A stretch of 64,000 bases of DNA from Nevskia sp. (GTDB lineage: Bacteria > Pseudomonadota > Gammaproteobacteria > Nevskiales > Nevskiaceae). Location of the stretch: contig JAQGNU010000089.1 of assembly GCA_028291645.1 (NCBI GenBank), positions 24,740 through 88,739 on the forward strand, read 5' to 3'. The notes beneath the pieces were generated by a model. The model saw only the letters and a list, made by a program, of their open reading frames with translations, searched no databases and was not told the origin of the DNA. The stretch's first letter is position 1. Each line of letters begins with the position of its first letter. Below, piece after piece: positions 28,569-62,125 of the stretch. Position numbers and translations under genes: made by a program.

Positions 28569-28610
28569 TTGACCACGGTCAATGCGGTTTAGAAATCACG
28601 CACGCATATT
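28569..28610 (+). promoter_or_regulatory. CRP/FNR-type box TTGACCACGGTCAA (28569-28582) plus -10-like CATATT (28605-28610), upstream of the porin
   Basis: Perfect TTGAC-N4-GTCAA; hexamer begins 23 nt after the palindrome. Confidence 0.65.
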
Positions 28611-39343: not shown

Positions 39344-41038
39344 TTAATTGGTCTGGTCCGGCGATTCAGGCTGCGCCTGCGAATGCGTGGTCACGCCGGG
39401 CTCTTCGCAGGCGCGCAGAGCGACTCCGAATTTTCCGAAGTAGCGACGCGGACCCCGATGCTTGCCGACCAGGCCCGCCCTGACCAGCTTGCGCAGCACA
39501 TTGGTGCGCGCTTCGCACAGCAGCACGCGTACGCCGCGGCGCTCGAGGCTTTGCGTCGCTTCATCGAGCGCCTGAATGCCGGTGATGTCCATGAACGGCA
39601 CCCGCCCCAGGCGGATCACGACACAGCGCGGGTCGGTGTGGGTCTGCTGCAGCGCGCGCTCGAGGCTCTCGACCGCGCCGAAGAAAAACGGACCTTCGAT
39701 CGAGTACACCAGCACATCGGCGGGCAGCCGCGCGAGATCGCTGCTTTGCAGTTCGGCGCGGATGGCGCTTTCGTCGACCCGCAGCACCTCGACCGACGAG
39801 GCCATGCGCCGCAGGAACAGCAGCATCGCCAGGATGACGCCAACGTTGACCGCGACCACCAGGTCGGTAAACACCGTCAGCAAGAACGTGATCAGCAGAA
39901 TCGCGACGTCGGTGCGCGGCGCTGTCCGCACCATCCGCACGAAGTGCCGCGCCTCGCTCATGTTCCAGGCCACCACGAACAGGATCGCCGCCAGCGCGCA
40001 CAGCGGCACCTGCGCGGCGAGTGGCGCCAGCAGCAACAGGATCAGCAGCAGCGTCAGCGAATGAACGATGCCTGCGAGCGGACTGGTGCCGCCGTTGCGG
40101 AAATTGGTCGCGGTGCGTGCGATCGCACCGGTCGCGGCAAAACCGCCGAACAAGGGCGCTACCAGATTGGCGATGCCCTGACCGATCAGTTCCTGGTTCG
40201 AGTCATGGCGGGTGCCGGCCATGCCATCCGCGACGACGGCGGACAGCAGCGACTCGATCGCGCCCAGCATGGCAATGGTGAACGCGGCCGGCACCAGCAA
40301 GCTGAGCCGGTCGAAAGAGATCTCCGGCAGGCTCAAGTGCGGCAATCCCCGCGGGATGCCGCCGAAGGCGCTCGCAATCGTCGCCACGCCTTCGAACGAG
40401 AAGCCGGCTTGAATGACCGTTGCGGCAACCATCGCCAGCAAGGGACCGGGGACACGCGCGAGTCCTGGGATGCGCGGGCCATAGAGCACCAGTCCGAGGC
40501 TGAGCAGCGCCAGCGCGGTGGTTGCGGGATGCAGCTGCGGCAGCATTTCGAGCAGATGCAGCAGCTTCTCGTGGAAGTGCGTGCCCACGGGCGCGGGCAG
40601 GCCGAAGAAGTCTTTCCATTGACCGACCCAGATGATGACGCCGATCCCGGCGGTGAAGCCGACGATCACCGGATCGGGAATGAAACGCAGCACGCCGCCG
40701 AACTTGGCCAGGCCGAACAGGATCAGGATGACGCCGGCCATCGAGGTGGCGAGCAGCAGCCCATCGACCCCGTACTTGGCGGTGACGCCGGCGAGGATGA
40801 CGATGAACGCGCCGGTCGGCCCCGCGATCTGAATGCGGCTGCCGCCGAATAAGGACACCACCAGACCGGCGACGATCGCCGTGTAGATGCCCTGCTCGGG
40901 CTTGACGCCCGAGGCGATGGCGAAGGCCATGGCGAGCGGCAGCGCCACCACGCCGACAATGATGCCGGCCACCAGGTTGCGTGCCCACTGATCGCGCCGG
41001 AACAGCCCCGCTCGAGCGGCCGCCACGACCGCAATCAT
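39344..41038 (-). CDS. SulP/SLC26-family anion transporter with STAS domain
   Basis: GIYTAIVAGLVVSLFGGSRIQIAGPTGAFIVIL; C-terminal STAS domain (VPFMDITGIQALDEATQSLERRGVRVLL). Confidence 0.9.
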   Translation of the reverse strand: MIAVVAAARAGLFRRDQWARNLVAGIIVGVVALPLAMAFAIASGVKPEQGIYTAIVAGLVVSLFGGSRIQIAGPTGAFIVILAGVTAKYGVDGLLLATSMAGVILILFGLAKFGGVLRFIPDPVIVGFTAGIGVIIWVGQWKDFFGLPAPVGTHFHEKLLHLLEMLPQLHPATTALALLSLGLVLYGPRIPGLARVPGPLLAMVAATVIQAGFSFEGVATIASAFGGIPRGLPHLSLPEISFDRLSLLVPAAFTIAMLGAIESLLSAVVADGMAGTRHDSNQELIGQGIANLVAPLFGGFAATGAIARTATNFRNGGTSPLAGIVHSLTLLLILLLLAPLAAQVPLCALAAILFVVAWNMSEARHFVRMVRTAPRTDVAILLITFLLTVFTDLVVAVNVGVILAMLLFLRRMASSVEVLRVDESAIRAELQSSDLARLPADVLVYSIEGPFFFGAVESLERALQQTHTDPRCVVIRLGRVPFMDITGIQALDEATQSLERRGVRVLLCEARTNVLRKLVRAGLVGKHRGPRRYFGKFGVALRACEEPGVTTHSQAQPESPDQTN

Positions 41039-41177: not shown

Positions 41178-41220
41178 TTGACCGCGGTCAATGCGGTGCG
41201 CGAATCCCTGTCCATATGAT
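41178..41220 (+). promoter_or_regulatory. CRP/FNR-type box TTGACCGCGGTCAA (41178-41191) plus -10-like TATGAT (41215-41220), upstream of oxc
   Basis: Perfect 14-bp palindrome; hexamer begins 24 nt after it. Confidence 0.7.
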
Positions 41221-41329: not shown

Positions 41330-43135
41330 ATGGCATCAGTCCTCACACAGGCGCCACCGACGATCGCGACGACGGCGGACGGCACGCTCAAGGCGAAAGG
41401 TGGCGAGGCTGGCGCCACGTCGGGCGGCCATCCGCACGACGCACAGGCAGAGCAGACCGACGGGTTTCATCTGGTCATCGATGCGCTGAAGCTGAACGAT
41501 CTCAACACGATCTTTGGTCTGGTCGGCATTCCGATTACCGACCTCGCGCGCCTCGCGCAAGGCGAAGGCATGCGCTTCATCGGCTTCCGCCATGAACAGC
41601 ACGCGGGCAATGCCGCCGCAATCGCCGGCTATATGACGCAGAAGCCCGGCATCTGCATGACCGTGTCCGCACCCGGTTTCCTGAATGGCCTGACGGCGCT
41701 GGCCAATGCGACCACCAACTGCTTCCCGATGATCCTGATCAGCGGATCGAGCGAGCGCGAGATCGTCGATCTGCAGCAGGGCGACTACGAGGAAATGGAT
41801 CAGCTGAGTGCTGCCAGACCGTATGCCAAGGCGGCCTATCGTGTGCTCCACGCCGAAGACATCGGCATCGGCGTCGCCCGCGCGATCCGTGCGGCCGTCT
41901 CCGGCCGGCCCGGCGGCGTTTATCTCGATCTGCCGGCGAAACTGCTCGCGCAAACGCTCGATGCAGCGCGTGGCAAGAAATCCTTGGTGAAAGTGGTCGA
42001 TCCGGTGCCGCGTCAAATCCCGGCGCCGGATTCGATCAAGCGCGCGCTCGATCTGCTGAAAAGCGCCAAGCGTCCGCTGATCCTGCTCGGTAAAGGCGCT
42101 GCCTACGCGCAGGCCGATGCCGACATTCGCGCGCTCGTCGAAAAAACCGGCATTCCGTATCTGCCGATGTCGATGGCCAAGGGTCTGCTGCCGGATACCC
42201 ATCCGCAATCGGCTTCGGCCGCGCGCTCTTTCGTGCTGGCCGAGGCGGATGTCGTGCTGCTGATCGGCGCTCGCCTGAACTGGCTGCTCGCACATGGCAA
42301 AGGCAAGACCTGGGGTGGACCGAAGCAGTTCATCCAGGTTGACATCGCGCCGACGGAAATCGACAGCAACGTGGCGATCGCAGCCCCCGTGATCGGTGAC
42401 ATCGGCTCTTGCGTGGCGGCGTTGCTGGCCGGCATCGAGTCCGGTTTCAGCCAGCCCAGCGCCGAGTGGACCGGTGCGATCACCGAACGCAAAGACAAGA
42501 ACCTGGCGAAGATGGCGGTGACGCTCGAGCAGAATCCGTCGCCGATGAACTTCCACAGCGCGCTGCGCGCGATCCGCGATGTACTGAAGACGCGTCCAGA
42601 TATCAACGTCGTCAACGAAGGCGCCAACACGCTCGACTATGCCCGCAGCATCATCGACATGTACGAGCCGCGTAAGCGCTTCGACTCCGGCACCTGGGGC
42701 ATCATGGGCATCGGTATGGGTTATGCCATCGGTGCTGCGGTCGTCAGCGGCCTGCCGGTGGTTGCCATCGAAGGCGACAGCGCGTTCGGTTTCAGTGGCA
42801 TGGAACTCGAGACCATCTGCCGCTACGAGCTGCCGGTCTGCACCATCGTGTTCAACAACAATGGCGTTTATCGCGGCACCGATGTGAACCTGAGCGGCGG
42901 CAAGGATGTTGCGCCGACCGTTTTCGTCAAGGGCGCGCGCTACGACAAGATGATCGAAGCCTTCGGCGGCGTTGGCTACAACGCGACGACGCCGGCAGAA
43001 CTGACGCAAGCACTGACCGCAGCCATCGCGTCGGGTAAACCGACCCTCATCAACGCCGTCATCGACGAAGCCGCGGGCACCGAGAGTGGCCGCCTGACGA
43101 ATCTGAACCCGCAAAGCGCGGCGAAGAAGAAGTAG
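41330..43135 (+). CDS. oxc: Oxalyl-CoA decarboxylase
   Basis: ThDP enzyme; [83 protein letters not shown]; next to formyl-CoA transferase. Confidence 0.95.
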
Positions 43136-43161: not shown

Positions 43162-44415
43162 ATGAGCAACAAGCCACTTGCAGGCATCAAGATTATCGAC
43201 TTTACCCATGTGCAAGCCGGCCCCGCTTGCACGCAGTTGCTGGCCTGGTTCGGCGCCGACGTCATCAAGGTCGAGCGCCCCGGTTCGGGCGATGTGACCC
43301 GTTCCCAGCTGCGCGACATCCCGGATGTCGACGCGCTGTACTTCACCATGCTCAACAGCAACAAGCGTTCGCTGACGCTGGATACGAAGAAACCCGAAGG
43401 CAAGGAAGTGCTGGAAAAGCTGATCCGCGAATCCGATGTGCTGGTGGAAAACTTCGGTCCCGGCGCGCTCGACCGTATGGGCTTCACCTGGGAACGCATC
43501 AACGAGCTGAACCCGAAGCTGATCGTCGCTTCGGTCAAGGGCTTCAGCGACGGCCACCACTACGACGACCTCAAGGTCTATGAAAACGTGGCGCAGTGTG
43601 CCGGCGGTGCGGCCTCGACCACCGGCTGGTGGGACGGTCCGCCAACCATCAGCGCCGCCGCGCTGGGCGACAGCAACACCGGCATGCATCTGGCCATCGG
43701 CATCCTGACGGCGATCATCGGCCGCCAGCAGACCGGCAAGGGCCAGAAGGTTTCGGTGTCGATGCAGGACAGCGTGCTCAACCTGTGTCGCGTGAAGATG
43801 CGTGACCAGCTGCGCCTGGACCGCCTCGGTTACCTGGAAGAGTACCCGCAGTACCCGCACGGCACGTTCAGCGATGTCGTGCCGCGCGGCGGCAATGCCG
43901 GCGGCGGCGGCCAGCCGGGCTGGGTGCTGAAGTGCAAGGGCTGGGAGACCGACCCGAACGCCTACATCTATTTCACCATCCAGGGCCATGCCTGGGCGCC
44001 GATCTGCAAAGCGCTGGGCAAGGAAGAGTGGATCGACGATCCCAACTACAACACCGCCAAGGCACGCCAGCCGCACATCATGGAGATCTTCGGCGAGATC
44101 GAGACCTGGCTGTCGAACAAGACCAAGTTCGAAGCGGTCGACATCCTGCGCAAGTTCGACATCCCCTGTTCGCCGGTGCTGACGATGAAGGAACTGGCCA
44201 ACGACCCGTCGCTGCGCGCCAGCGGTACCATCGTCGACGTGCCGCACAAGGAGCGCGGCAGCTACCTCACCGTCGGCAGCCCGATCAAGTTCTCCGACCT
44301 CAAACCCGAGATCACCGGTTCGCCGCTGCTGGGCGAGCATACCGACGAAGTGCTGGCGCAACTGGGCTACGGCAAAGACCAGATCGCGGCGCTGCACAAG
44401 TCCGCAGCGGTCTGA
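43162..44415 (+). CDS. frc: Formyl-CoA:oxalate CoA-transferase (CaiB/BaiF family), copy 1
   Basis: [44 protein letters not shown]; follows oxc. Confidence 0.93.
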
Positions 44416-44497
44416 ATCGTAGAGTTCCTCCGCGCGCACTGCGTCCATCGCGGACGCAGTGCGCGTAGGATGGCCGCGCGGCACTGAGGAGATTTCT

Positions 44498-44935
44498 GTG
44501 CTTTCGAATGTCGACCTGCAGCAACTGGTCGTCGGCGCTGCCGACGCGATCATCGTGTGCGATGCGCAGGGCGCCGTCCGCTTCTGGAATCATGCCGCCG
44601 AACGCATCTTCGGTTTCTCCGAAGCCGAAGCGCTCGGCCAGCCGCTGGACCTGATCATTCCGCAGCGCCAGCAACAGCGCCACTGGGAGGGTTACCACAA
44701 GACGATGGCGACGGGCGTGACCAAGTACGGTGCGGATCTGTTGCGCGTGCCTGCGCTGCATAAGGACGGGCACACGCTGTCGATCGCATTCACCGTCACG
44801 CTGTTGTTGTCGTCGGATCAGAAAGTCGATGGCATCGCTGCGATCGTGCGCGACGAAACCCGCCGTTTCGCCGAGGAGCGCGAATTGCGCAAACGCGTCG
44901 CCGAACTCGAGGCCGAGATAGCGGCAGACCGCTAA
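44498..44935 (+). CDS. Single PAS-domain protein, probable GTG start
   Basis: SD GAGGAG, GTG; LVVGAADAIIVCDAQGAVRFWNHAAERIFGFSEAEALGQPLDLIIPQRQQQRHWEGYHKTM. Confidence 0.8.
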   Translation: MLSNVDLQQLVVGAADAIIVCDAQGAVRFWNHAAERIFGFSEAEALGQPLDLIIPQRQQQRHWEGYHKTMATGVTKYGADLLRVPALHKDGHTLSIAFTVTLLLSSDQKVDGIAAIVRDETRRFAEERELRKRVAELEAEIAADR

Positions 44936-45065: not shown

Positions 45066-46325
45066 ATGAGGAGTTCCATGAGCAAGGCATTAGACGGCGT
45101 CCGCATCCTGGACTTCACCCACGTGCAATCCGGACCGACCTGCACGCAGTTGCTGGCCTGGCTCGGCGCCGACGTCATCAAAGTGGAACGCCCCGGCGAG
45201 GGCGACGCGACGCGCGCCCAGCTGCGCGATGTCGCCGATGCCGACAGCCTGTATTTCACGATGCTGAACCACAACAAGCGCTCGCTCACGCTCGACACCA
45301 AAGACCCGATCGGCAAGGAAGTGCTGGAGACGCTGATCCGCTATTGCGACGTGCTGGTCGAGAATTTTGCGCCCGGCGCACTCGATCGCATGGGCTTCAC
45401 CTGGCAGCGCATCAACGAGCTCAACCCGCGCATGATCGTCGCCTCGGTCAAGGGCTTCGGACCCGGCCCCTACGAGGATTGCAAGGTTTACGAGAACGTT
45501 GCGCAGTGCGCCGGCGGTGCGGCCTCGACCACCGGCTTCGACGATGGCCCGCCGATGGTAACGGGTGCGCAGATCGGCGACAGCGGCACCGGCTTGCACC
45601 TGGCGCTCGGTATCGTCGCCGCGCTGTATCAGCGCAACAGCACCGGGCACGGCCAGAAGGTATTGGCACCGATGCAGGATGCGGTGCTGAATCTGTGCCG
45701 CGTCAAGTTGCGCGACCAGCAGCGCCTGGAACGTACCGGCACCATGCACGAGTACCCGCAGTATCCGGACGGCAAGTTCGGCGAAGCGGTGCCGCGCGCC
45801 GGCAATGCTTCCGGTGGTGGCCAGCCCGGTTCGATCCTCAAGTGCAAGGGTTGGGAGACCGATCCCAATGCCTACATCTACTTCATCACGCAGGGCGCCG
45901 TGTGGCCTGCGGTATGCAAGGTTATTGGCGAGGAAGGCTGGATCACGGACGAAGCCTTTAAAACACCGGCTGCGCGCCTGCTGCATCTGAAGCCGATCTT
46001 CGCGCGCATCGAGCAGTGGACCATGACCAAAACCAAGTTCGAGGCGATGGATATCCTCAACAAGTACGACATCCCCTGCGGCCCGATCCTATCGATGAAA
46101 GAGATTGCGCAGGAACCGTCGTTGCGCGAAACCGGCACCATCGTCGAAGTCGATCATCCCACGCGCGGCAAATATCTGACGGTGGGCAACCCGATCAAAC
46201 TATCCGATAGCCCGACCGAGGTGACGCGTTCGCCGCTGTTGGGAGAACACACCGAAGAGGTGTTGGCGCAACTCGGCTACAACGCGGAACAAGTCGCGCT
46301 GATGCGCGCCAAGAAAGTCATCTGA
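45066..46325 (+). CDS. CaiB/BaiF family CoA-transferase, Frc paralogue (copy 2)
   Basis: Strongly similar to copy 1: [69 protein letters not shown]. Confidence 0.9.
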
Positions 46326-47220: not shown

Positions 47221-47263
47221 TTGACCGCAGTCAAGGCGTTGCACGAACGAGTTTTCACACAAT
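47221..47263 (+). promoter_or_regulatory. CRP/FNR-type box TTGACCGCAGTCAA (47221-47234) plus -10-like CACAAT (47258-47263), upstream of gcl
   Basis: TTGAC-N4-GTCAA; hexamer begins 24 nt after the palindrome. Confidence 0.65.
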
Positions 47264-47577: not shown

Positions 47578-49335
47578 ATGGCCAAGATGACGGCGGCCGA
47601 CGCGGCGGTCCGCGTGATGGAAATCGAAGGCGTGGAACACGCGTTCGGCATACCCGGCGCGGCAATCAATCCGCTCTACGCCGCGATGCAGCGGCGCGGC
47701 AGCATCGCGCACGTCCTGGCGCGCCACATGGAAGGCGCATCGCATCTCGCCGAGGGCTACACGCGCAGCAAGGCCGGCAACATCGGCGTCTGCATCGGCA
47801 CCTCGGGGCCGGCGGGCACGGATATGATCACCGGCCTGTATTCCGCGCAGGCCGACTCGATTCCGATTCTCTGCATCACCGGGCAGGCGCCGCGTGCGCG
47901 TCTGTATAAAGAAGACTTCCAGGCGGTGGATATCGAATCGATCTCCAAGCCGGTGACCAAGTGGTCGGTCACGGTGCGTGAGCCGGCGCTGGTGCCGCGT
48001 GCGTTCCAACAGGCGTTTCATCTGATGCGCTCGGGTCGTCCGGGGCCGGTGCTGATCGATCTGCCGTTCGACGTGCAGATGGCCGAGATCGAATTCGACC
48101 CGGACACCTACCAGTCGCTGCCGGCCTACAAGCCGACCGCGCAGCGCAACCAGATCGAGAAGGCCCTCGACATGCTCGCCGCCGCGAGCCATCCCTTGAT
48201 CGTGGCCGGTGGCGGCATCATCAACGCCGATGCGTCGGCGCTATTGGTGGAGTTCGCCGAACTGACCGGCGTGCCGGTGATTCCGACCTTGATGGGCTGG
48301 GGCACGATCCCCGACCAGCATCCGCTGATGGCCGGCATGGTCGGCCTGCAGACGCAGCATCGCTATGGCAACGCGACGATGCTGGCTGCGGACTTCGTGC
48401 TCGGTATCGGCAACCGTTGGGCGAATCGGCACACCGGCTCGGTCGAGGTCTACACCGAAGGCCGCAAGTTCGTGCACGTCGATATCGAACCGACCCAGAT
48501 CGGCCGCGTGTTCTGTCCCGATCTCGGCATCGTCTCGGACGCCAAGGCGGCGCTCGAACTGTTCGTGCAGGTGGCGCGTGAACGCAAGCAGGCCAACAAG
48601 CTGCCGGACCGGAGCGAGTGGGCTGCTGAATGCCTGGAGCGCAAGCAGACGATGCTGCGCAAATCGCATTTCGACGAGATTCCGATCAAGCCGCAGCGCG
48701 TCTACGAGGAAATGAACAAGGCTTTCGGCACCGATGTCTGTTACGTCAGCAGCATCGGTCTGTCGCAGATCGCCGGCGCGCAGTTCCTGACGGTGAACAA
48801 GCCGCGTCACTGGATCAACTGCGGCCAGGCCGGTCCGCTCGGCTGGACCATTCCGGCCGCGTTGGGTGTGTGCGTGGCCGATCCGTCGCGCAAGGTGGTG
48901 GCGCTGTCCGGCGACTTCGACTTCCATTTCATGATCGAGGAACTGGCGGTCGGCGCGCAGTTCAAGATCCCGTACATCCACGTGCTGGTGAACAACTCCT
49001 ACCTCGGCTTGATCCGGCAGGCGCAGCGCAATTTCAAGATGGATTACTGCGTGCAGCTGTCGTACGACAACATCAACGCACCGGAGCTGAACGGCTATGG
49101 CGTTGATCACGTCTCGGTGGTGGAAGGCCTCGGCTGCAAGGCGATCCGGGTGACGCGCCCGGACGACATTCTGCCGGCGCTGAAGCAGGCGCAAGCCTGG
49201 CTGAAGGAGTTCGCCGTGCCGATCGTAGTGGAGATCATCCTCGAGCGCGTCACCAACATCGCGATGGGCACCGAGATCAACGCCGTCACCGAGTTCGAGG
49301 AAATACTCGACGTCGAATCGGCCATCAGTGCCTAA
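47578..49335 (+). CDS. gcl: Glyoxylate carboligase (tartronate-semialdehyde synthase)
   Basis: [63 protein letters not shown]; ThDP fold; followed by hyi. Confidence 0.95.
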
Positions 49336-49397
49336 GGCAAGCAGCGTCGTCGGCCGCAGCAGCGGCCGCGATGCATACATTCAAGGAGGAACACCGG

Positions 49398-50174
49398 ATG
49401 CCTAAGTTCGCCGCCAACCTGACGATGCTGTTCAACGAGATCGATTTTCTCGACCGCTTTGAAGCGGCATCGAAAGCCGGCTTCACCGGCGTGGAATATC
49501 TGTTTCCGTACGCGTATCCCGCGGCACAGCTCGCCGCGCTGCTGAAGAAGCACCGTCTGACGCAGGTGCTGCACAACCTGCCGGCGGGCGACTGGGCGAA
49601 AGGCGAGCGCGGCATCGCCTGCCTGCCGGATCGCGTTGCGGAATTCCAGGACGGCGTCGGCAAGGCGATCAGCTACGCCACCGTGCTCGGCTGCGAACAA
49701 CTCAATTGCCTGGTCGGCATTGCGCCCAAGGGCGTGCCCGCAGACCAAGTGCGCGCAACCGTGCTGGCCAATCTCAAATTCGCCGCCGCGGCGCTGAAGA
49801 AAGCCGGCATCCGGCTGCTGATCGAGCCGGTCAACACCTTCGACATTCCGGGCTTCTATCTCAACCGTACTGCGCAGGCGCTCGACTTCATCAGCGAAGT
49901 CGGCTCCGACAACCTGTTCCTGCAGTACGACATCTACCACATGCAGCGCATGGAGGGAGAACTCGCCAACAGCATCAAGGCGCATCTCTCCAAGATCGCG
50001 CACCTGCAGCTGGCCGACAATCCCGGCCGCAACGAACCCGGCACCGGCGAGATCAATTACGCGTTTCTGTTCCAGTTCATCGATCTGCTGGGTTACGACG
50101 GCTGGATCGGCTGCGAATACAAGCCGCGGACGACGACCACCGACGGCCTCGGCTGGCTCAGTTCCTGTCTTTAG
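49398..50174 (+). CDS. hyi: Hydroxypyruvate isomerase
   Basis: MPKFAANLTMLFNEIDFLDRFEAASKAGFTGVEYLFPYAY; SD AAGGAGG. Confidence 0.93.
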   Translation: MPKFAANLTMLFNEIDFLDRFEAASKAGFTGVEYLFPYAYPAAQLAALLKKHRLTQVLHNLPAGDWAKGERGIACLPDRVAEFQDGVGKAISYATVLGCEQLNCLVGIAPKGVPADQVRATVLANLKFAAAALKKAGIRLLIEPVNTFDIPGFYLNRTAQALDFISEVGSDNLFLQYDIYHMQRMEGELANSIKAHLSKIAHLQLADNPGRNEPGTGEINYAFLFQFIDLLGYDGWIGCEYKPRTTTTDGLGWLSSCL

Positions 50175-50228: not shown

Positions 50229-51131
50229 ATGGCTAAGGTTGGATTCATCGGTTTGGGCATCATGGGCGCGCCGATGGCGGGTCATCTGCGTACCGGCGGC
50301 CACGAGTTGTACGTCTACGATCTCAATCCGGTGCCGAAGGACCTGGTCGACAAAGGCGTCGTCGCCTGCAGCTCCGGCAAGCAGGTCGCCGAGCAGGCCG
50401 ACATCATCATCACGATGGTGCCCGACACGCCGCACGTCGATGCGGCGCTGTTCGGTAAGGGCGGTGTCGCCGAAGGTTTGAAGGCCGGCAAAACCGTGGT
50501 CGACATGAGTTCGATCTCGCCGATCGAGACCAAGAAGTTCGCGCTGAAGATCAACCAGCTCGGCTGCGAGTATCTCGATGCGCCAGTGTCCGGCGGCGAA
50601 GTCGGCGCCAAGGCGGCATCGCTGACGATCATGGTCGGTGGCCCCGAGGCCGCCTTCGGCAAGGTCAAGCCGCTGTTCGACCTGATGGGCAAGAACATCA
50701 CGCTGGTCGGCGGCAACGGCGATGGCCAGACCTGCAAGGTTGCCAACCAGATCATCGTTGCGCTGACCATCGAAGCGGTCGGCGAAGCCTTGCTGTTCGC
50801 ATCCAAGGCCGGCGCCGATCCGGCCAAGGTGCGCCAGGCTTTAATGGGCGGCTTCGCCGCGTCGCGCATTCTCGAAGTGCATGGCGAGCGCATGGTCAAG
50901 CGCAATTTCGAGCCGGGCTTCCGCATCGAGCTGCATCAGAAAGATTTGAACCTCGCGCTGCAGGGCGCACGTGCGCTAGGCGTATCGCTGCCGAATACGG
51001 CGAGCTGCCAGGAATTGTTCAACACCTGTGCTGCACACGGCGGTTCCAAGTGGGATCATTCGGCCATGGTGCGTGCGCTGGAATTGATGGCGAATCACGA
51101 GATCGGCGCGCAGCAGAACAGCGCTGGCTGA
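50229..51131 (+). CDS. glxR: 2-hydroxy-3-oxopropionate (tartronate semialdehyde) reductase
   Basis: MAKVGFIGLGIMGAPMAGHL; DAPVSGGEVGAKAASLTIMVGG. Confidence 0.93.
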   Translation: MAKVGFIGLGIMGAPMAGHLRTGGHELYVYDLNPVPKDLVDKGVVACSSGKQVAEQADIIITMVPDTPHVDAALFGKGGVAEGLKAGKTVVDMSSISPIETKKFALKINQLGCEYLDAPVSGGEVGAKAASLTIMVGGPEAAFGKVKPLFDLMGKNITLVGGNGDGQTCKVANQIIVALTIEAVGEALLFASKAGADPAKVRQALMGGFAASRILEVHGERMVKRNFEPGFRIELHQKDLNLALQGARALGVSLPNTASCQELFNTCAAHGGSKWDHSAMVRALELMANHEIGAQQNSAG

Positions 51132-51248: not shown

Positions 51249-52571
51249 TTGCCTGGTGGAATGCGAATGCAAGCCCCGCGTGAGTTGCTGCGACAACTGT
51301 TCGACGCTGCCGTGGCGGCGGCGGCGCCGGACAAATGCATTCCGCAGTATCTGCCGGAGCCACCGACAGGACGCCTGATCGTGATCGGCGCCGGCAAGGC
51401 CTCGGCAGCAATGGCGCGCGCCGTGGAAAAAAACTGGGCGGCCGAACTCAGCGGTCTGGTGGTAACGCGTTACGGCTACGCCGTGCCCTGCGAGCGCATC
51501 GAGATCATCGAAGCCGCGCATCCGGTGCCCGATGCCGCCGGCCTGCAGGCCGCGCAGCGCATGCTGGAACGCGTGCAGGGTCTGTCGCCGGACGATCTGG
51601 TGCTGTGCCTGATTTCCGGCGGCGGCTCGGCGCTGCTGTCGCTGCCGCTGGCCGGACTGACGCTCGGAGACAAACAGAACGTCAATCGCGCGCTGCTGAA
51701 ATCAGGCGCCAGCATCAGCGAGATGAATTGCGTGCGGCGTCATCTGTCGGCGATCAAGGGCGGCCGGCTGGCCGCGGCCTGCTATCCCGCACGCGTACTG
51801 ACGCTGCTGATCTCGGACGTGCCCGGCGACAATCCGATCGACATCGCTTCGGGGCCGACCAGCGCCGATCCCACCACCTGCGCCGACGCGCTCGAGATCG
51901 TCAAGCGTCGCGGCATCGAGCTGCCGCCCGCAGTGCGCCGGATTCTGGAAAGCGGGCAGGGCGAAAGCGTCAAGCCGGGCGACCCGCGTCTGGCGCGCGC
52001 CACCACGCGCTTGATCGCCACGCCGCAGATGGCGCTCGAAGCGGCTGCCGCGGTTGCTGCGGCTGCCGGTGTTCCCGCAGTGCTGCTCGGTGACAGTCTC
52101 GAAGGCGAGGCTTGCGAAGTCGGCAAAGTGATGGCCGGCATTGCGCGCGCGGTGGCGCAGCACGGTCATCCGCATGCCGCGCCCTGCGTGCTGCTGTCCG
52201 GCGGCGAGACCACGGTGACGGTGCGCGGCAGCGGCAGCGGCGGTCGCAATGTCGAATTCCTGTTGGCGCTCGGTGTCGCGCTCGATGGCCATGCCGGCAT
52301 CTGGGCGATCGCCGGCGATACCGATGGCGTCGACGGCGCCGAAGAGCGCGCCGGTGCCTTGCTGACGCCGGACACGCTGACGCGCGCGTTCGCACTGGGC
52401 ATCAATCCGAAAGACAGCCTGGCCAACAACGACGGCCATGGATTTTTTACCGCGTTGGACGATTCCGTAGTGACCGGTCCGACGCTGACCAACGTCAACG
52501 ACTTCAGAGCAATCCTGATCACGCAAGAGGCGGCCAAGGGGCCGACAACTAAAGATGCGCCGACAACGTAA
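51249..52571 (+). CDS. ttuD: Glycerate kinase (MOFRL/TtuD family)
   Basis: VIGAGKASAAMARAVE; LISGGGSALLSLPLAGLTL; SGGETTVTVRGSGSGGRNVEFLL. Confidence 0.92.
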   Translation: MPGGMRMQAPRELLRQLFDAAVAAAAPDKCIPQYLPEPPTGRLIVIGAGKASAAMARAVEKNWAAELSGLVVTRYGYAVPCERIEIIEAAHPVPDAAGLQAAQRMLERVQGLSPDDLVLCLISGGGSALLSLPLAGLTLGDKQNVNRALLKSGASISEMNCVRRHLSAIKGGRLAAACYPARVLTLLISDVPGDNPIDIASGPTSADPTTCADALEIVKRRGIELPPAVRRILESGQGESVKPGDPRLARATTRLIATPQMALEAAAAVAAAAGVPAVLLGDSLEGEACEVGKVMAGIARAVAQHGHPHAAPCVLLSGGETTVTVRGSGSGGRNVEFLLALGVALDGHAGIWAIAGDTDGVDGAEERAGALLTPDTLTRAFALGINPKDSLANNDGHGFFTALDDSVVTGPTLTNVNDFRAILITQEAAKGPTTKDAPTT

Positions 52572-53967
52572 CGCCAAGATTGTTGCCACGCTGGGGCCGG
52601 CCAGCGCTACTGTGGGAATCATCCGCGCGCTGTTCGACGCGGGTGTCGATATGTTCCGCCTCAACTTCAGTCATGGCAGTCACCAGCAGCATCAGGAGCG
52701 GATCGCGATGATCCGCCAGGTCGAGCGCGATGTCGGTCGTCCGATCGGCGTGCTGATGGATCTGCAGGGACCGAAGCTGCGCGTCGGCACGTTTGCCGCC
52801 GGGCCGATCGTGCTGCTGAGCGGCGCGCAGTTTCGCCTCGATCTGGATCCGAAGCCGGGCGACGTCGATCGCGTCTGCCTGCCGCATCCGGAGATTTTTG
52901 CGGCCCTCAAGCCAGGCACCGACCTGTTGCTCGACGACGGCAAGATCCGGCTCGAAGTCACGCAATGCGGACATGATTTTGCGCAGACGCGGGTGGTGAT
53001 CGGCGGCGCGCTGTCGGAACGCAAGGGCGTCAACGTGCCGCAGGTGCTGTTGCCGCTGTCGGCGCTGACCGCAAAGGATCGTCGCGATCTGGCGTTTGGT
53101 CTGGAACTCGGTGTCGACTGGCTGGCGCTGTCGTTCGTGCAGCGTCCCGAGGACATCGACGAAGCGCGCGAACTGGTCCGGGGCCGGGCGCAGATCATGA
53201 CCAAGCTGGAGAAGCCCGCGGCGGTTGAACGGCTCGACGAAATCATCGCGAAATCGGATGCGGTGATGGTGGCGCGCGGCGATCTCGGCGTGGAGCTTCC
53301 GGCCGAGCAGGTGCCGGCGATCCAGAAGCGCACTGTGCGCAGTTGCCGCGCCGCCGGCAAGCCGGTGATCGTTGCAACCCAGATGCTGGATTCGATGGTG
53401 AGCTCGCCGGTGCCGACGCGTGCGGAAGCGTCCGACGTCGCCACCGCGATTTACGACGGCGCCGACGCGGTCATGCTGTCGGCCGAATCGGCGAGCGGCA
53501 AGTATCCGGTCGAAGCGGTGCAGATGATGGACCGCATCATCCTGCAGGTGGAGAAAGATCCGATCTGCCGCCAGTTCATGGAGGCTTCGCATACACCGCC
53601 GCAGCACACCATGGCGGATGCGATCTGTTGCGCGCTGCGCCACGTCACCAAGCTGATGCACCCGGCGGCGATCGTGACCTATACCAGCTCCGGACATACC
53701 AGTCTGCGTGCGGCGCGCGAACGTCCCGAAGCGCCGATCCTCAGCATGACGCCGGCGATTGGCACGGCGCGGCGGCTGGCGTTCGTGTGGGGCGTGCACT
53801 CGGTGCACACCCACGAAATCGCCGATGTGCAGGAGATGGTCGACTACGCCACGCAGACCGCGCTGAGCGAAGGTTTCGCGCAGAGCAAAGACATCATCGT
53901 CATCGCCGCCGGCATGCCGTTCGCGACACCCGGCACGACCAATCTGTTGCGCATCGCGCAGCTTTGA
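52555..53967 (+). CDS. pyk: Pyruvate kinase
   Basis: RRQRNAKIVATLGPASATVGIIRALFDAGVDMFRLNFSHG; MVARGDLGVELP; overlaps the end of ttuD. Confidence 0.95.
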   Translation: MRRQRNAKIVATLGPASATVGIIRALFDAGVDMFRLNFSHGSHQQHQERIAMIRQVERDVGRPIGVLMDLQGPKLRVGTFAAGPIVLLSGAQFRLDLDPKPGDVDRVCLPHPEIFAALKPGTDLLLDDGKIRLEVTQCGHDFAQTRVVIGGALSERKGVNVPQVLLPLSALTAKDRRDLAFGLELGVDWLALSFVQRPEDIDEARELVRGRAQIMTKLEKPAAVERLDEIIAKSDAVMVARGDLGVELPAEQVPAIQKRTVRSCRAAGKPVIVATQMLDSMVSSPVPTRAEASDVATAIYDGADAVMLSAESASGKYPVEAVQMMDRIILQVEKDPICRQFMEASHTPPQHTMADAICCALRHVTKLMHPAAIVTYTSSGHTSLRAARERPEAPILSMTPAIGTARRLAFVWGVHSVHTHEIADVQEMVDYATQTALSEGFAQSKDIIVIAAGMPFATPGTTNLLRIAQL

Positions 53968-55198: not shown

Positions 55199-56020
55199 TT
55201 ATCCCGCCAGCGCCGCCGACGCGCTGCGCGGTACCGATGACGCACCTCGGCTTGGCAAGGTATTCGACAGCGCGCCAATGCCTTCGATGAACACTTCCAC
55301 CGTCGCACCTTCCTTGATCGAGCCGATGCCGACCGAAGTGCCGCAGGCGATGACATCGCCGGGCAGCAGCGTCATGTCGTGCGAAATCAGGCTGACCTGT
55401 TGTTGCGGGCTGAAGATCATGTCGGACAGCGGATAGTTCTGCCGCTCGACGCCGTCCATCCGCGTAATGACGCGTGCCTGCTGCCAATCCAATGCAGTGG
55501 CGATCACCGGCCCGATGCAGCTGAAGCTGTCGAAGCCCTTGGAGCGGCACCACTGCGGGAAATTGATGTCCTCGTTGAGCAATTCGGCGGCGGTGACATC
55601 GTTGACGCAGGTGTATCCGAAAATATAGTCGTCGGCCGCATCGACCGAGACATTGCGACAGGTTTTGCCGATAACGATGCCGAGCTCGCCTTCGAACGCG
55701 ATCTTGCCCGCATAGTCCTTCGGACGAATGATCAGATCGTCGGGACCGGCCAAGGAGGTCGAAGGCTTCAGCAGGAACAAGGGATGTACCGGCGCGGCCT
55801 TGCCGAGCTTGGTGGAAAGCTCGCGGAAATTGTTCCATAGCGCCACCACCTTGCTTGGGACGCAAGGGCTCAGCAGCGACACCTGCGCAAGCGGCAACGT
55901 GGCGCCGCTCGGCGTCGGCGTGGACCAGAGATCGCCGCAGTATTCGACCACCTGATCCTGCTCGAGTGTGCCGAAGCCGATCTGTGCGTTATCCCGCTTG
56001 AAGCGTATCCATCGTTTCAC
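55199..56020 (-). CDS. Fumarylacetoacetate hydrolase family protein
   Basis: KPSTSLAGPDDLIIRPKDYAGKIAFEGELGIVIGKTCRNVS; GYTCVNDVTA. Confidence 0.85.
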   Translation of the reverse strand: MKRWIRFKRDNAQIGFGTLEQDQVVEYCGDLWSTPTPSGATLPLAQVSLLSPCVPSKVVALWNNFRELSTKLGKAAPVHPLFLLKPSTSLAGPDDLIIRPKDYAGKIAFEGELGIVIGKTCRNVSVDAADDYIFGYTCVNDVTAAELLNEDINFPQWCRSKGFDSFSCIGPVIATALDWQQARVITRMDGVERQNYPLSDMIFSPQQQVSLISHDMTLLPGDVIACGTSVGIGSIKEGATVEVFIEGIGALSNTLPSRGASSVPRSASAALAG

Positions 56021-56154: not shown

Positions 56155-56784
56155 TCAGATTTTTCCCTGGTGCTTCAAGCGGCTCAGGGTTTCGGCCGAC
56201 ATGTTGAGATAGGACGCCAGTTCTTTCTTAGGGATGTGATCGGCCAACTCGGCATGCTTGCGCAGGAAGCGATGCACGCGGCCGGGCGCATCGAGCAGAT
56301 GCAGCGTGATGGTGTGCGCCATGATGTCGCTCATGATGCGGGTCACCTCGAACTCGAAGCTCTGCTTCAGTGGCAGGTGTTTGCCGATGAAGTTGACCCA
56401 GTCCGGCAGCGGCATCTTGACGACGCGCGCCTTGGTCACGCTGACGATGCTGTACGGCGTCTGATTCTTCAGGCGCCAGGCGGCGTAGCTGGTCTCGATG
56501 TCGCGCTCGCCGGCGAAACGCAGAATCATTTCCTTGGCTTCGGGACTCGTCACCACGCGTTTCAGGATGCCGTCGAGGATGAAGTACTGCTCCATCTCGT
56601 AGACGCCCTGATGCAGCAGAAGGTCACCCTTGTTGCAGTCGACCACCACCAGCTGCGGCGCCAGTTCGGCCGTTTCCGCTTCGCTCATTTCCTTGAGGAT
56701 GACGTTCTGCCGCAGCTGACGAAAGATGGAATTCTTGTCTGAATGATCCTGCACCCTCTCAATGTGCTTATCTAACTGCGTCAT
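56155..56784 (-). CDS. CRP/FNR-family transcriptional regulator; start uncertain, ORF track start is 56961
   Basis: Cyclic-nucleotide-binding fold (VVVDCNKGDLLLHQGVYEMEQYFILDGILKRVV) and HTH IPKKELASYLNMSAETLSRLKHQGKI. Confidence 0.88.
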   Translation of the reverse strand: MTQLDKHIERVQDHSDKNSIFRQLRQNVILKEMSEAETAELAPQLVVVDCNKGDLLLHQGVYEMEQYFILDGILKRVVTSPEAKEMILRFAGERDIETSYAAWRLKNQTPYSIVSVTKARVVKMPLPDWVNFIGKHLPLKQSFEFEVTRIMSDIMAHTITLHLLDAPGRVHRFLRKHAELADHIPKKELASYLNMSAETLSRLKHQGKI

Positions 56785-57006
56785 GGGTGTTCGCGCACGG
56801 CTCTGAACGGAGACCGCAAGCATGCGTCGAACATCGACCATGGTCAATTTCGACTGCACGCCGGCCGACGGCTGCGCCATTTGCTGGCTCATGGGTTCGC
56901 AGGGCCTTCGCAGCGGGCTTGGCCGGCGCCAAACGGGCACCGGCCGCTGCCGTGCGGGCATGCGGCTGCGGAGTCCATCGCCATGGCCCTTGTCACCGGG
57001 TTCGCG

Positions 57007-58089
57007 TCACGAGGTCTGCGGGACTTCCGTCGCCGCACCGGCGGCGCGGGCGGCTGCCGCGGAATGTGGCGCTACGCCGGCGGTGCCGAGCGTGCGTTCC
57101 TGTTGCAGCCGCTCGTCGGCGATGCCCTTGGCCAGCAGCTTGGTCAGCGCGAAAACCGTGTCGATGTGCGGCGTTGGTGTCTTGGTGAGGCGTCCCAGTT
57201 CGGCGACCGAACCCACCAGCGCGTCGATTTCCGGGTCGCGCTGCGCCTCGATGTCCTGCAGCATGGAGGTCTTGTGCTTGCCGACCTTCTCGGCGCCGGC
57301 GATACGCTTTTCCAGCGACACACGGAACGTAATGCCCAGCTTGTTGGCGATGCTCTGCGCCTCGGTCATCATCGCCGCGGCCAGTGCGCGCGTCAGCGGG
57401 TACTGGCAGATGTCGACCAAGGTCGCGCGCGCCAGCGCACTGATCGGATTGAACGTGAGATTGCCCCACAGCTTCAGCCAGATTTCGGCGCGGATATCGT
57501 CGAGCACCGGCGACTTGAATCCAGCCTTGGTAAAACAGTCGGCAACGCGTTTGACTCGCGCGCTGTTCGAGCCATCCAACTCGCCGACCGGGAAGCGGTC
57601 ACCTTCGATGTGCTGCACCACGCCCGGCTTGAGCAGTTCGGACGCCGGGTAGACCACGCAACCGATCACGCGCTCGGCCGGGATTTTCTCGCTGATCACG
57701 CCGGTCGGGTCGACCGACTCGACGTGACTGCCGGCCAGTGCGCCACCGTGTTTGTGGAAGTACCAGTACGGAATACCGTTCTGCATGGTGACGACCATCG
57801 TGTCCGGCCCGAACAGCTTCGGCACGTCGTTCGCGACCGTCACCACCTGGTGTGCCTTCATCGCGAGGATCACCAGATCCTGCGGACCGGCAGCCGCATA
57901 ATCGTTGGTCGCCTTGACGTCGCCGGCGACCAGCGTCGTCCCGTCGTGCAGAATCAGCTTCATGCCATTCTGGCGGATCGCAGCCAGGTTGGCACCGCGC
58001 ACCATGAACGTCACGTCCTCGCCCGCGAGGGCCAGTTTCGCGCCGACGTACCCGCCGATGGCGCCGGCGCCGATAATTGCGATCTTCAT
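57007..58089 (-). CDS. Ketopantoate reductase-family protein; putative oxalyl-CoA reductase (PanE2-like)
   Basis: MKIAIIGAGAIGGYVGAKLALAGEDVTFMVRG; family PanE/ApbA; location in the oxalate cluster suggests the PanE2 role. Confidence 0.8.
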   Translation of the reverse strand: MKIAIIGAGAIGGYVGAKLALAGEDVTFMVRGANLAAIRQNGMKLILHDGTTLVAGDVKATNDYAAAGPQDLVILAMKAHQVVTVANDVPKLFGPDTMVVTMQNGIPYWYFHKHGGALAGSHVESVDPTGVISEKIPAERVIGCVVYPASELLKPGVVQHIEGDRFPVGELDGSNSARVKRVADCFTKAGFKSPVLDDIRAEIWLKLWGNLTFNPISALARATLVDICQYPLTRALAAAMMTEAQSIANKLGITFRVSLEKRIAGAEKVGKHKTSMLQDIEAQRDPEIDALVGSVAELGRLTKTPTPHIDTVFALTKLLAKGIADERLQQERTLGTAGVAPHSAAAARAAGAATEVPQTS

Positions 58090-58276: not shown

Positions 58277-58319
58277 AGTATGGCGCTGCACTCCGGCGAG
58301 GTTCCTTGACCGGCGTCAA
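58277..58319 (-). promoter_or_regulatory. CRP/FNR-type box TTGACCGGCGTCAA (58306-58319, plus strand) with minus-strand -10-like CATACT (58282-58277), upstream of the PanE2-like gene
   Basis: TTGAC-N4-GTCAA; minus-strand hexamer begins 24 nt after the palindrome. Confidence 0.6.
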
Positions 58320-58414: not shown

Positions 58415-58456
58415 TTGACCGCGGTCAAGGCCCGACCGTCGGCGTGTATATAGAAT
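58415..58456 (+). promoter_or_regulatory. CRP/FNR-type box TTGACCGCGGTCAA (58415-58428) plus -10-like TAGAAT (58451-58456), upstream of the P-loop gene
   Basis: Perfect palindrome; hexamer begins 23 nt after it. Confidence 0.7.
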
Positions 58457-58588: not shown

Positions 58589-60460
58589 GTGAGGGCCCAT
58601 GTCGAAAGCGCCTACGAGTACGTGCACGGTAGTTCAGTCATGAATCTCGCCGCCGCGCGCGACGATGACGCGCTGGGCCCCTGGAATCCAGGCATCAGTT
58701 CGAACATCCCGCGCCGCCTGCTGCCGCGGTCGACGATTTTCCGTGCGGACAACGTCTTCACCAGTGTCGAGCGCGCGGTGGAGTTGCGCGATCTCACCGG
58801 CCTCGAGTTCAGCGAACTCGTCGTATTCCGTCCGCAGCGGCTGGTACTGCACGAAGTTCTGATCCGCGTCACCGGCGATCTTTCGGTGCCGGACGGATCC
58901 AGATACGAAGATCTCGGCATCAATTTCCGGCGCATGGTGCGCGTGATTCTCGCGCAGTACGTCGATCCCCGCATGGGCGAGATCGTCGACGCCTACGCGC
59001 AAATGCGGCAGCAGCTTGCGGCAGTCGTCGAAGCGGAACTGGTCAAGGCGATGTCACCGCCGCCGGAGCCAGCGGCATCGAGCAGCGCAAGCGTCTTCCG
59101 ATTGCCCTGGCTGCGCCGGCGCAGCCAGGCCACGCCGCGTACCGACGATGCCTCGCTATTTTCGCTGCCGCGCGCCGCCGACGCATGGGAAGCGCGCGCA
59201 AATACTGAAAGCGATGCGCTGACGCAAGCGGCGTTGCGCGCGCTGGCCCGGGTCGCGCAGGCGCTTTATCAAAGGAGCGGTCATTCCTGGGCTTCACAGC
59301 AACTGCTGGCCGCGATCGCGATCGATCTCGCCAGCAACAGCTACTGCAGCCGCGCGATCGGCCGTCTGATCGAGCCCTGCATGCGCGCGGCCGCCGCCGC
59401 CGAGGGTTATCGGTTCCTGCCCTCGCAGCAGTGTCCGATCGTGATCAACACCAAAGGCCCTTCCGCGTCCGGCAAGAGCACCCTGCGTCCGCTGCAGCGC
59501 ATGTTCACCGGCAAGATCGGCGTGCGCTGGGATGAATTCGCGCTGATCAGCCCGGACATCTGGCGCAAGCAGTTGCTCGACTACGCTTCGCTCGGCGCCG
59601 ATCATCGCTATGGATCGATGTTGACCAGCGAGGAGATCACTCTCATCGATCAGAAGCTCGACTACTACGTGGCGCGCGCGGCGGAGCAGGGGCGCATTCC
59701 GCATCTGCTGATCGACCGTTTCCGCTTCGGCAGCTTCGCCACCGAATCGGAGAATGCGCTGAGCAATCTGCTGAGTCGCTTCGGCCAGAAGATTTACTTC
59801 TGCTTCATGATCACGCCGCCGCAGGACATCGTCGAGCGCGCCTGGAAGCGTGGTCTCCAGTACGGCCGCTACAAGGCGGTCGACGATCTGCTCGCACACA
59901 GCGTCGAGGCCTACTCCGGCATGCCGCGCTTGTTCCTGGCATGGGCGCAGCGGCTCGACAAGCTGGTGCACTACGAATTTCTCGACAACAGCGTGCCGCT
60001 CGGGCATCGGCCCAAAACCGTTGCCTTCGGCAGCAACGGCACGATGGTCGTACTCGACGTCAACAAGATGCTCGACGTCGGGCGTTTCCGTAGCGTCAAT
60101 ATCAATGCAACCGCGCCGTCGCAGCTGTACGAAAATGCCGATGCCGTGCGCGATGCGCTGGCCGGCTACGCCGACTTTCTGTTGCAGTGCGTGCGACGCC
60201 TGCGCGAAGTCGTCTTCGCCGACCAGGCCAGCGGCCGCATCTACTTGCACGTTATTGCGGGACGCGCAGTATGGGCCGATCCGGCGGCGCTGAGCGTGGC
60301 GCTGCTGGATATCGACACCGCTGCCGGCATACGCGCCATCGCGCCTGGCATTGACCAAGTAGCGCATCCGATGGCGAACCCGCCGCGCTACGTGAAGGAC
60401 CTGCCGGGGCACGATCAGGCCAGTACGCTGGGTGACTGGAATGCCTCTACATTGCAGTAA
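58589..60460 (+). CDS. P-loop (zeta-toxin/kinase-like) protein of unknown function in the oxalate cluster
   Basis: 623 aa; Walker A-like INTKGPSASGKSTLRP; DEFALISPDIWRKQLLDY; alternative ATG start at 58640. Confidence 0.7.
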   Translation: MRAHVESAYEYVHGSSVMNLAAARDDDALGPWNPGISSNIPRRLLPRSTIFRADNVFTSVERAVELRDLTGLEFSELVVFRPQRLVLHEVLIRVTGDLSVPDGSRYEDLGINFRRMVRVILAQYVDPRMGEIVDAYAQMRQQLAAVVEAELVKAMSPPPEPAASSSASVFRLPWLRRRSQATPRTDDASLFSLPRAADAWEARANTESDALTQAALRALARVAQALYQRSGHSWASQQLLAAIAIDLASNSYCSRAIGRLIEPCMRAAAAAEGYRFLPSQQCPIVINTKGPSASGKSTLRPLQRMFTGKIGVRWDEFALISPDIWRKQLLDYASLGADHRYGSMLTSEEITLIDQKLDYYVARAAEQGRIPHLLIDRFRFGSFATESENALSNLLSRFGQKIYFCFMITPPQDIVERAWKRGLQYGRYKAVDDLLAHSVEAYSGMPRLFLAWAQRLDKLVHYEFLDNSVPLGHRPKTVAFGSNGTMVVLDVNKMLDVGRFRSVNINATAPSQLYENADAVRDALAGYADFLLQCVRRLREVVFADQASGRIYLHVIAGRAVWADPAALSVALLDIDTAAGIRAIAPGIDQVAHPMANPPRYVKDLPGHDQASTLGDWNASTLQ

Positions 60461-60524: not shown

Positions 60525-60566
60525 TTAACCGCGGTCAAGGAGAACGGCAAAACGTTCTTGCAGAAT
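60525..60566 (+). promoter_or_regulatory. CRP/FNR-type box TTAACCGCGGTCAA (60525-60538) plus -10-like CAGAAT (60561-60566), upstream of oxlT
   Basis: One mismatch in the left arm; hexamer begins 23 nt after the palindrome. Confidence 0.6.
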
Positions 60567-60787: not shown

Positions 60788-62125
60788 ATGAGCAATGTGA
60801 ATGAAGTCCAGTCGGACGAGGTGCGGTATACGGGGGTTACAAAAAATCGTTGGCTGCAACTGCTGTTCGGCGTCATCTGTATGGGCTTGGTTGCAAACCT
60901 ACAGTATGCGTGGACGCTGTTCGTCAGCCCGATCGAAGCAAAGAATCATTGGGGCCTGCCTGCAATTCAATTGTCGTTTTCAATTTTCGTGCTGGTGGAA
61001 ACCTGGTTGGTTCCGGTTGAAGGCTGGCTGGTCGACAAGCTCGGGCCGCGCCCGGTCATCGCGATCGGCGCCATCTTCGCCGGCATAGGCTGGGTGCTGA
61101 ATTCCTATGCCGCGTCCTTGACCGCGCTGTACGTAGCCGCAGTCATTTCTGGAATCGGCGCAGGTTGTGTTTACGGTACTTGTGTCGGCAATGCGCTGAA
61201 GTGGTTTCCGGATCGTCGCGGTCTTGCTGCAGGACTCACCGCTGCAGGCTTCGGTGCCGGTGCAGCGCTCACCGTGATTCCCATTGCCAATACGATTCAG
61301 AGCTCGGGCTATGAGAGCGCCTTCCTCTACTTCGGCATCATCCAGGGCGTCGCCATTTTCGTTCTGGCAATGTTCATGGTGCGGCCGCAGGCACCGAAAT
61401 TCATGCCGGTCAAGCGCACCATCGTCATGACCAAGGTCGACTACACCACCGGGCAAATGCTGAAGACGCCGGTGTTCTGGCTGATCTACGCATTGTTCGT
61501 GGCAGTGGCTGCGGGCGGATTGATGGCGACGGCGCAAATCGGTCCGATCGCCAAGGACTACGGCTTCGCCAAGCTGCCGATCACGATGCTGGGCTTCACC
61601 TTGCCGCTGCTGACGATGACGCTGTCGATCGACAATCTCTGCAACGGCTTTACGCGTCCACTGTGCGGGTTCATTTCCGACCGCATCGGCCGCGAGAACA
61701 CCATGTGCTTCGTGTTCGTCGGCGAAGGCTTGGCGATGCTCGGCCTGATGTACTTCGGGCACAACCCGTATGCGTTCATGACCTTTGCCGCGCTCGTATT
61801 CCTGTTCTGGGGTGAGATCTTCTCGATCTTCCCGGCGACCTGTGCGGATACCTTCGGCACCAAGTATGCGGCTGGCAACGCCGGTACTTTGTATACCGCG
61901 AAAGGTACGGCCTCGCTGCTGGTCCCGCTGGCGTCGGTGCTCTCGGCCGGCGGCAACTGGGATCGTGTGTTCATGGCCGCGGCTGCCATCACCATCGCCG
62001 CGGGCATCGCCGCCAAGTTCCTGCTGGCGCCGATACGCCGGCGCTCGATTGAAGGCTCTGCCGCGATGGCGGCCAAGCGCTTCAAGGTTCCGGGAAACGT
62101 CGGCACGGTTAAAGACGTCAGCTGA
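60788..62125 (+). CDS. oxlT: MFS transporter, oxalate/formate antiporter family
   Basis: WLQLLFGVICMGLVANLQYAWTLFVSPIEAKNHWGLPAIQLSFSIFVLVETWLVPVEGWLVDKLGPRP, OxlT-like; cluster context. Confidence 0.9.
   Translation: MSNVNEVQSDEVRYTGVTKNRWLQLLFGVICMGLVANLQYAWTLFVSPIEAKNHWGLPAIQLSFSIFVLVETWLVPVEGWLVDKLGPRPVIAIGAIFAGIGWVLNSYAASLTALYVAAVISGIGAGCVYGTCVGNALKWFPDRRGLAAGLTAAGFGAGAALTVIPIANTIQSSGYESAFLYFGIIQGVAIFVLAMFMVRPQAPKFMPVKRTIVMTKVDYTTGQMLKTPVFWLIYALFVAVAAGGLMATAQIGPIAKDYGFAKLPITMLGFTLPLLTMTLSIDNLCNGFTRPLCGFISDRIGRENTMCFVFVGEGLAMLGLMYFGHNPYAFMTFAALVFLFWGEIFSIFPATCADTFGTKYAAGNAGTLYTAKGTASLLVPLASVLSAGGNWDRVFMAAAAITIAAGIAAKFLLAPIRRRSIEGSAAMAAKRFKVPGNVGTVKDVS

Follow-up and report, generated by a model that had tools for sequence, protein, structure and literature searches.

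A wingless CRP/FNR-type regulator in the oxalate gene cluster of Nevskia sp. is the probable reader of a TTGACC-NN-GGTCAA promoter box

The window, by which we mean the whole 64-kb stretch of Nevskia sp. DNA that was analysed, contains oxc, two frc genes, gcl, hyi, glxR, a glycerate kinase gene and oxlT, most of them confirmed at family level. Oxalyl-CoA decarboxylase is encoded by oxc (41330..43135, plus strand; NF006721, 1037 bits; TIGR03254, 1011 bits), which is followed on the same strand by frc1 (43162..44415; formyl-CoA:oxalate CoA-transferase, TIGR03253, 727 bits) and frc2 (45066..46325; formyl-CoA transferase, 715 bits). A stand-alone PAS protein of 158 aa is encoded between the two frc genes (44459..44935, plus strand). 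It is kept in this position, at ~57–69% identity, in most loci that carry the regulator described below, and it also occurs at lower identity in genome G322, which has no regulator. Further along the plus strand lie gcl (47578..49335; glyoxylate carboligase, 1139 bits), hyi (49371..50174; hydroxypyruvate isomerase) and glxR (50229..51131; tartronate semialdehyde reductase), and then genes for glycerate 2-kinase (MOFRL/DUF4147; 51249..52571) and pyruvate kinase (52555..53967). The oxalate/formate antiporter gene oxlT is at 60788..62125 on the plus strand (TIGR04259, 616 bits against a cut-off of 335). A SulP/STAS permease gene (39344-41038, minus strand) is divergent from oxc.

The regulator gene occupies 56155..56784 on the minus strand. 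Downstream of it, on the same strand, is a gene for an FAA-hydrolase-family protein (55199..56020), syntenic in several orthologous loci, and just upstream is a gene for a PanE/ApbA-family reductase (57007..58089, minus strand). The latter is a candidate oxalyl-CoA reductase by analogy with the family of Methylorubrum extorquens PanE2 and Cupriavidus necator ApbA2, CoA-acylating glyoxylate dehydrogenases (oxalyl-CoA reductases); ApbA2, found through PanE2, is needed for normal growth of C. necator on oxalate (PMC7486775). A 623-aa protein is encoded at 58589..60460 on the plus strand, with its own box and −10 element. It has no family match apart from weak P-loop AAA_33 similarity, and it is found, 71–73% conserved, in Nevskia-type loci only.

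The earlier note had placed a CRP/FNR protein at 56155-56784, and an open reading frame with exactly these coordinates is present on the minus strand. It encodes 209 aa plus the stop codon and ends in IPKKELASYLNMSAETLSRLKHQGKI. A longer ORF of 268 aa was rejected as an over-extension; homologues begin at the Met of the 210-codon form, and this form is likely the correct one because three of them (L012, L013 and L034) share its start Met. The N-terminal region matches the beta-roll profile cNMP_binding (PF00027; 30.2 bits, cut-off 27.5), and HTH_Crp_2 (PF13545) gives a partial match that spans positions 2–42 of the 70 in the profile (17.8 bits, cut-off 27). The recognition helix reads AETLSRLK and the chain terminates at GKI, with no wing past the helix. 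In an alignment of 14 orthologues, in which L012 and L033, apparently one and the same contig from a single Nevskia MAG, were counted once (as in the box and −10 count below), the ETLSR motif is invariant and every protein ends at most seven residues after it.

ETLSR aligns with ETISR (VETISR) of Escherichia coli FNR, which bears out the proposal of an FNR-like recognition helix, and the boxes described below begin with TTGA, so that the E-xx-S-R/TTGA pairing of FNR is found here on both the protein and the DNA side. The only Cys of the regulator is C50; no Cys column is conserved across the 14 orthologues, one of which has no Cys at all. The expectation that the protein carries no FNR-type [4Fe-4S] cluster is thus upheld. 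H14, H136, H157 and H162 are invariant in the same alignment. An AlphaFold model built from six sequences reached a mean pLDDT of 55.9, too poor for the pocket to be read.

A profile of the regulator was compared with solved structures. The nearest were the uncharacterised Cytophaga protein 3dn7 (49.7 bits), DNR (30.6 bits) and CRP (29 bits). Chains of FNR, FixK2, NtcA, CooA and CprK were not retrieved from the PDB at an E-value of 0.01, although FNR as query does retrieve several of these characterised members. A tree of 26 rows, from which NtcA, CooA, CprK and FixK were left out, joined the regulator orthologues in one group (95/91), apart from FNR, CRP and DNR, with uncharacterised wingless CRP-type proteins as the sister group (90/93). 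The deep placement of the clade is uncertain because the branches are long. As far as tested, by profile and by this tree, the regulator did not fall inside a characterised clade with an unrelated ligand, the first of the refuting outcomes named in the earlier note.

Assignment as an FNR was rejected, since the four cluster cysteines are absent and both tree and profile place the protein elsewhere. What it shares with E. coli FNR is the E-T-x-S-R recognition helix, TTGA half-sites with 14-bp spacing and class II promoter geometry; it differs in its lack of conserved cysteines and of a wing past the recognition helix, and in its position in the tree. Judged from its sequence, the regulator is FNR-like at the DNA yet not an FNR. 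The layout of beta-roll, C-helix and HTH is that of E. coli CRP, with an alignable sensor domain (~29 bits), but a role as cAMP receptor was also rejected: in a hand-mapped alignment, the CRP contacts G71, E72, R82 and S83 are replaced by T98, S99, T109 and P110. DNR of Pseudomonas, a winged-HTH, NO/haem regulator of denitrification, is the nearest characterised solved relative and has the helix E-T-F-S-R, but occupies a separate branch. The wingless CRP-type proteins (Cytophaga 3dn7 and Gammaproteobacterial L086–L090 and L092) likewise end just past the recognition helix. However, they score only ~38–50 bits, their helices end in L-S-R or L-S-E without the E-T of E-T-L-S-R, and no oxalate context is known for them.

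TTGAC/GTCAA boxes had been reported in this DNA, and they proved real. A scan of the window for TTGAC-N(2-8)-GTCAA returned five exact matches where 0.35 were expected, all of them with the N4 spacer. The candidate operator has the consensus TTGACC-NN-GGTCAA, which is two-fold symmetric and has FNR/CRP spacing. The whole host genome contains ten exact palindromes, compared with three for a reversed-pattern control, and five of the ten fall inside the 64-kb window (binomial p ~3e-7). Those with the CC/GG core outside the window are on contigs C72 and C74. Chance occurrence was ruled out by the window count, the genome count, the promoter pairing and the statistics.

The box upstream of oxc (TTGACCGCGGTCAA, 41178..41191) is followed after 23 bp by the −10-like hexamer TATGAT (41215..41220, plus strand), at class II spacing. 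Service of this box to the divergent permease gene at 39344 was considered and dropped, there being no −10 on that side. Upstream of the gcl operon, the box TTGACCGCAGTCAA (47221..47234) is accompanied by CACAAT at 47258-47263, and upstream of a Porin_4 gene, TTGACCACGGTCAA (28569..28582), which is conserved in the congener G421, is accompanied by CATATT at 28605-28610. Two boxes lie between the reductase gene and the gene at 58589. The first, TTGACCGGCGTCAA (58306..58319), faces the panE-like, crp and fah genes on the minus strand, with CATACT at 58282-58277 of that strand, and is conserved in L012 and L034; the second (58415..58428), with the same sequence as the oxc box, faces the gene at 58589 on the plus strand, with TAGAAT at 58451-58456. 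The box upstream of oxlT, TTAACCGCGGTCAA (60525..60538), has one mismatch, is followed by CAGAAT at 60561-60566, and is conserved upstream of oxlT in L012 and L014–L016. Another box with one mismatch, TCGACCATGGTCAA (56834..56847), is located 50 bp upstream of the regulator. It has no −10 at class II spacing and is not conserved in L012 or L034, and it is possibly a chance match or autoregulatory.

Outside the window, host contig C74 (L036) carries a box between divergent thiC and ppc genes, with a −10 on each side. An NAD-dependent formate dehydrogenase gene adjoins ppc on this contig, and thiC provides a precursor of thiamine, on which Oxc and Gcl depend as TPP enzymes. On host contig C72 (L035, 4870), an exact box, followed 23 bp further on by TAGAAT, lies 590 bp upstream of a gene for an OprP-type porin; a congener with an OprP-type porin likewise carries the box. 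In G421, the thiC/ppc box (L137, contig C63) and both porin boxes recur.

The distance between box and −10 element is nearly fixed. With boxes oriented by their known target gene, or, for those at 58306 and 58415, by the −10 elements seen, 26 of 28 have a TATAAT-like hexamer (at least 4/6 matches) on the target side that starts 22–23 bp past the box, against a background of 4.7%, and no hexamer enrichment was found at this distance on the other side. Hexamers at this offset include TATGAT, CACAAT, CAGAAT, CATACT and TAATAT, and the promoters concerned are those of oxc, gcl, oxlT, the panE-like gene, porin, ppc and thiC. Since the hexamer begins 22–23 bases past the box, the box would be centred at about −41.5, where class II activators sit at CRP/FNR promoters, and this spacing suggests that the regulator is probably an activator. 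A degenerate pattern of box plus −10 has eight matches in the host genome, of which six belong to the oxalate cluster or to porin genes and the other two to the divergent thiC/ppc pair; the reversed control has none. Across 19 genomes, unrelated matches were also returned from regulator-free genomes, G414 foremost, so that outside regulator-bearing genomes the pattern has no diagnostic value by itself.

When 398 Pseudomonadota genomes were searched with the profile, eight orthologues of the regulator scored 361–396 bits and the next match 45 bits. With nothing between 361 and 45 bits, the clade is sharply bounded. Orthologues occur in several families, at 60–83% identity, and include proteins of a Nevskia MAG, a Ramlibacter MAG, Massilia, Herbaspirillum, Pseudoduganella and further genomes; a search of a plasmid collection returned only distant Bacteroidota Crp proteins. 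The orthologous genes are mostly near oxc and frc, often together with fah, panE-like and oxlT genes, and the box is in the gap before oxc. Of the 85 genomes in the order of the host, three have oxc, and these three alone have the regulator.

The pairing of box and regulator was examined in the 800 bp upstream of 30 oxc genes from the same genome sample. An exact box was found in all seven genomes with the regulator and in none of the 23 without it, and the latter (23/23) lacked even a box with one mismatch. Fisher's test gave p values of 5e-7 for genomes, 0.001 for genera and 0.029 for genera within class, in a sample in which several regulator-bearing genomes belong to one genus and with the remaining relatedness ignored. 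G312 is informative here, because its regulator is not beside oxc (it is on another contig) and yet the box is present at oxc. The box, the regulator–box pairing, the promoter spacing and the predicted regulon are computed results. Together, the association at the 30 oxc promoters, the conserved neighbourhoods, the gap in profile scores and the co-occurrence within the order support the earlier note's suggestion that this protein is the probable cognate regulator of the TTGAC/GTCAA boxes.

Boxes also precede other genes in regulator-bearing genomes, among them a TctCBA-type transporter in G366 and succinate/malate-CoA ligase-like genes in G312. G170 has no close oxc. There, the regulator is divergent from the gene for another TPP enzyme, followed by frc, with a box between them. 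The best model for this TPP enzyme is PRK05858, with a score below its cut-off. Two copies are present (L026, 10603-12309; L140, 2694-4400), which share ~27% identity with Oxc and both have a box and near-identical promoters; one is divergent from the regulator, and the other, with the box in front, is upstream of formate dehydrogenase-like genes. In this genome, oxalyl-CoA decarboxylase seems to have been replaced by another TPP enzyme. We interpret the predicted targets as fitting an oxalate regulon that comprises entry, TPP supply, decarboxylation, formate oxidation and anaplerosis.

We consider it highly likely that the regulator is a pathway-specific class II activator of the oxalate regulon, acting through TTGACC-NN-GGTCAA and switched by what is likely a pathway metabolite. 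As its clade travels with oxalate genes and the matched box precedes them, the regulator very probably switches on the use of oxalate. We infer that a dimer binds the palindrome through the FNR-like recognition helix; centred ~41.5 bp before the putative start site, it would contact RNA polymerase in the manner of class II CRP/FNR activators. The box would thereby drive oxc, gcl, oxlT, the panE-like/crp genes, two porin genes, the gene at 58589 and, on another contig, the divergent thiC and ppc. The ligand pocket appears to be of neither the cAMP nor the Fe-S kind, and oxalate, or oxalyl-CoA made by Frc, would most likely switch the regulator on.

The alternative that fares best is a regulator with haem, CO, NO or the redox state as its signal, which would couple oxalate oxidation to respiratory conditions. 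The four invariant histidines (H14, H136, H157 and H162) could in principle ligate haem, and DNR is the nearest characterised solved protein, but a conserved cysteine is absent and the predicted regulon consists of pathway-specific metabolic functions, not of respiratory ones; we regard this reading as improbable. Slightly less probable still is a regulator that is mainly a repressor, or a ligand-free constitutive activator whose level sets expression. Some CRP/FNR members act without a known ligand, and in Massilia-type loci a box lies 45–46 bp before the regulator start with no −10 placed for activation, as would suit negative autoregulation. However, the fixed box-to-−10 distance of 22–23 bp at metabolic targets is class II activator geometry, and a pathway-dedicated regulator normally requires a signal. 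It is very unlikely that another FNR/Dnr/FixK-type regulator, for oxygen or NO control, reads the boxes and that the adjacent CRP-type gene controls something else: the known boxes of FNR-type proteins span a range that includes TTGAC-N4-GTCAA, and a true FNR could sit in the missing sequence because the host genome is a 91% complete draft, but the oxc box tracks the regulator gene perfectly over 30 genomes, the other cNMP-binding proteins found in the host genome include no E-xx-S-R protein (its other Crp-type HTH proteins being one CRP-like and three atypical, all without the motif), and boxes genome-wide are at oxalate-linked genes, thiC/ppc and porins, respiration genes being absent.

For the pathway-specific activator, comparison of gene content narrows the choice of signal. 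In most loci inspected, frc genes accompany the regulator. A PanE-like reductase is encoded in all seven other regulator-bearing genomes and gcl in only one of them. Because gcl is missing in the other six, oxalate or oxalyl-CoA is likelier than products that follow glyoxylate, and we favour one of these two as the effector. Glyoxylate or later intermediates are less likely as a universal ligand; glyoxylate, formyl-CoA or haem-based sensing are possible alternative signals. We give about an even chance to the full proposal that the physiological ligand is oxalate or oxalyl-CoA and that the activator controls uptake, activation, decarboxylation and assimilation, and even thiamine supply through thiC.

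The regulator represents an as yet undescribed branch within the CRP/FNR family. In the open-access literature, to which the search was confined, subscription papers lying outside it, we found no account of a CRP/FNR protein that controls the oxc/frc pathway. Regulator, exact box and promoter geometry together form a candidate oxalate-responsive switch that is portable and can be tested directly. Promoter sequences could reveal oxalotrophy in soil, and engineered oxalate-degrading strains could use a native inducible promoter. NtcA, which senses 2-oxoglutarate, and CprK, which senses a chlorinated aromatic acid, are precedents for carboxylate sensing in the CRP family, but their chains were not matched by the regulator profile at an E-value of 0.01. 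Should oxalate or oxalyl-CoA prove to be the ligand, a sensor of a simple carboxylate would join NtcA in the family, as a dedicated oxalate sensor with a new class of effector. The predicted regulon also suggests new links between growth on oxalate and thiC, PEP carboxylase and specific porins.
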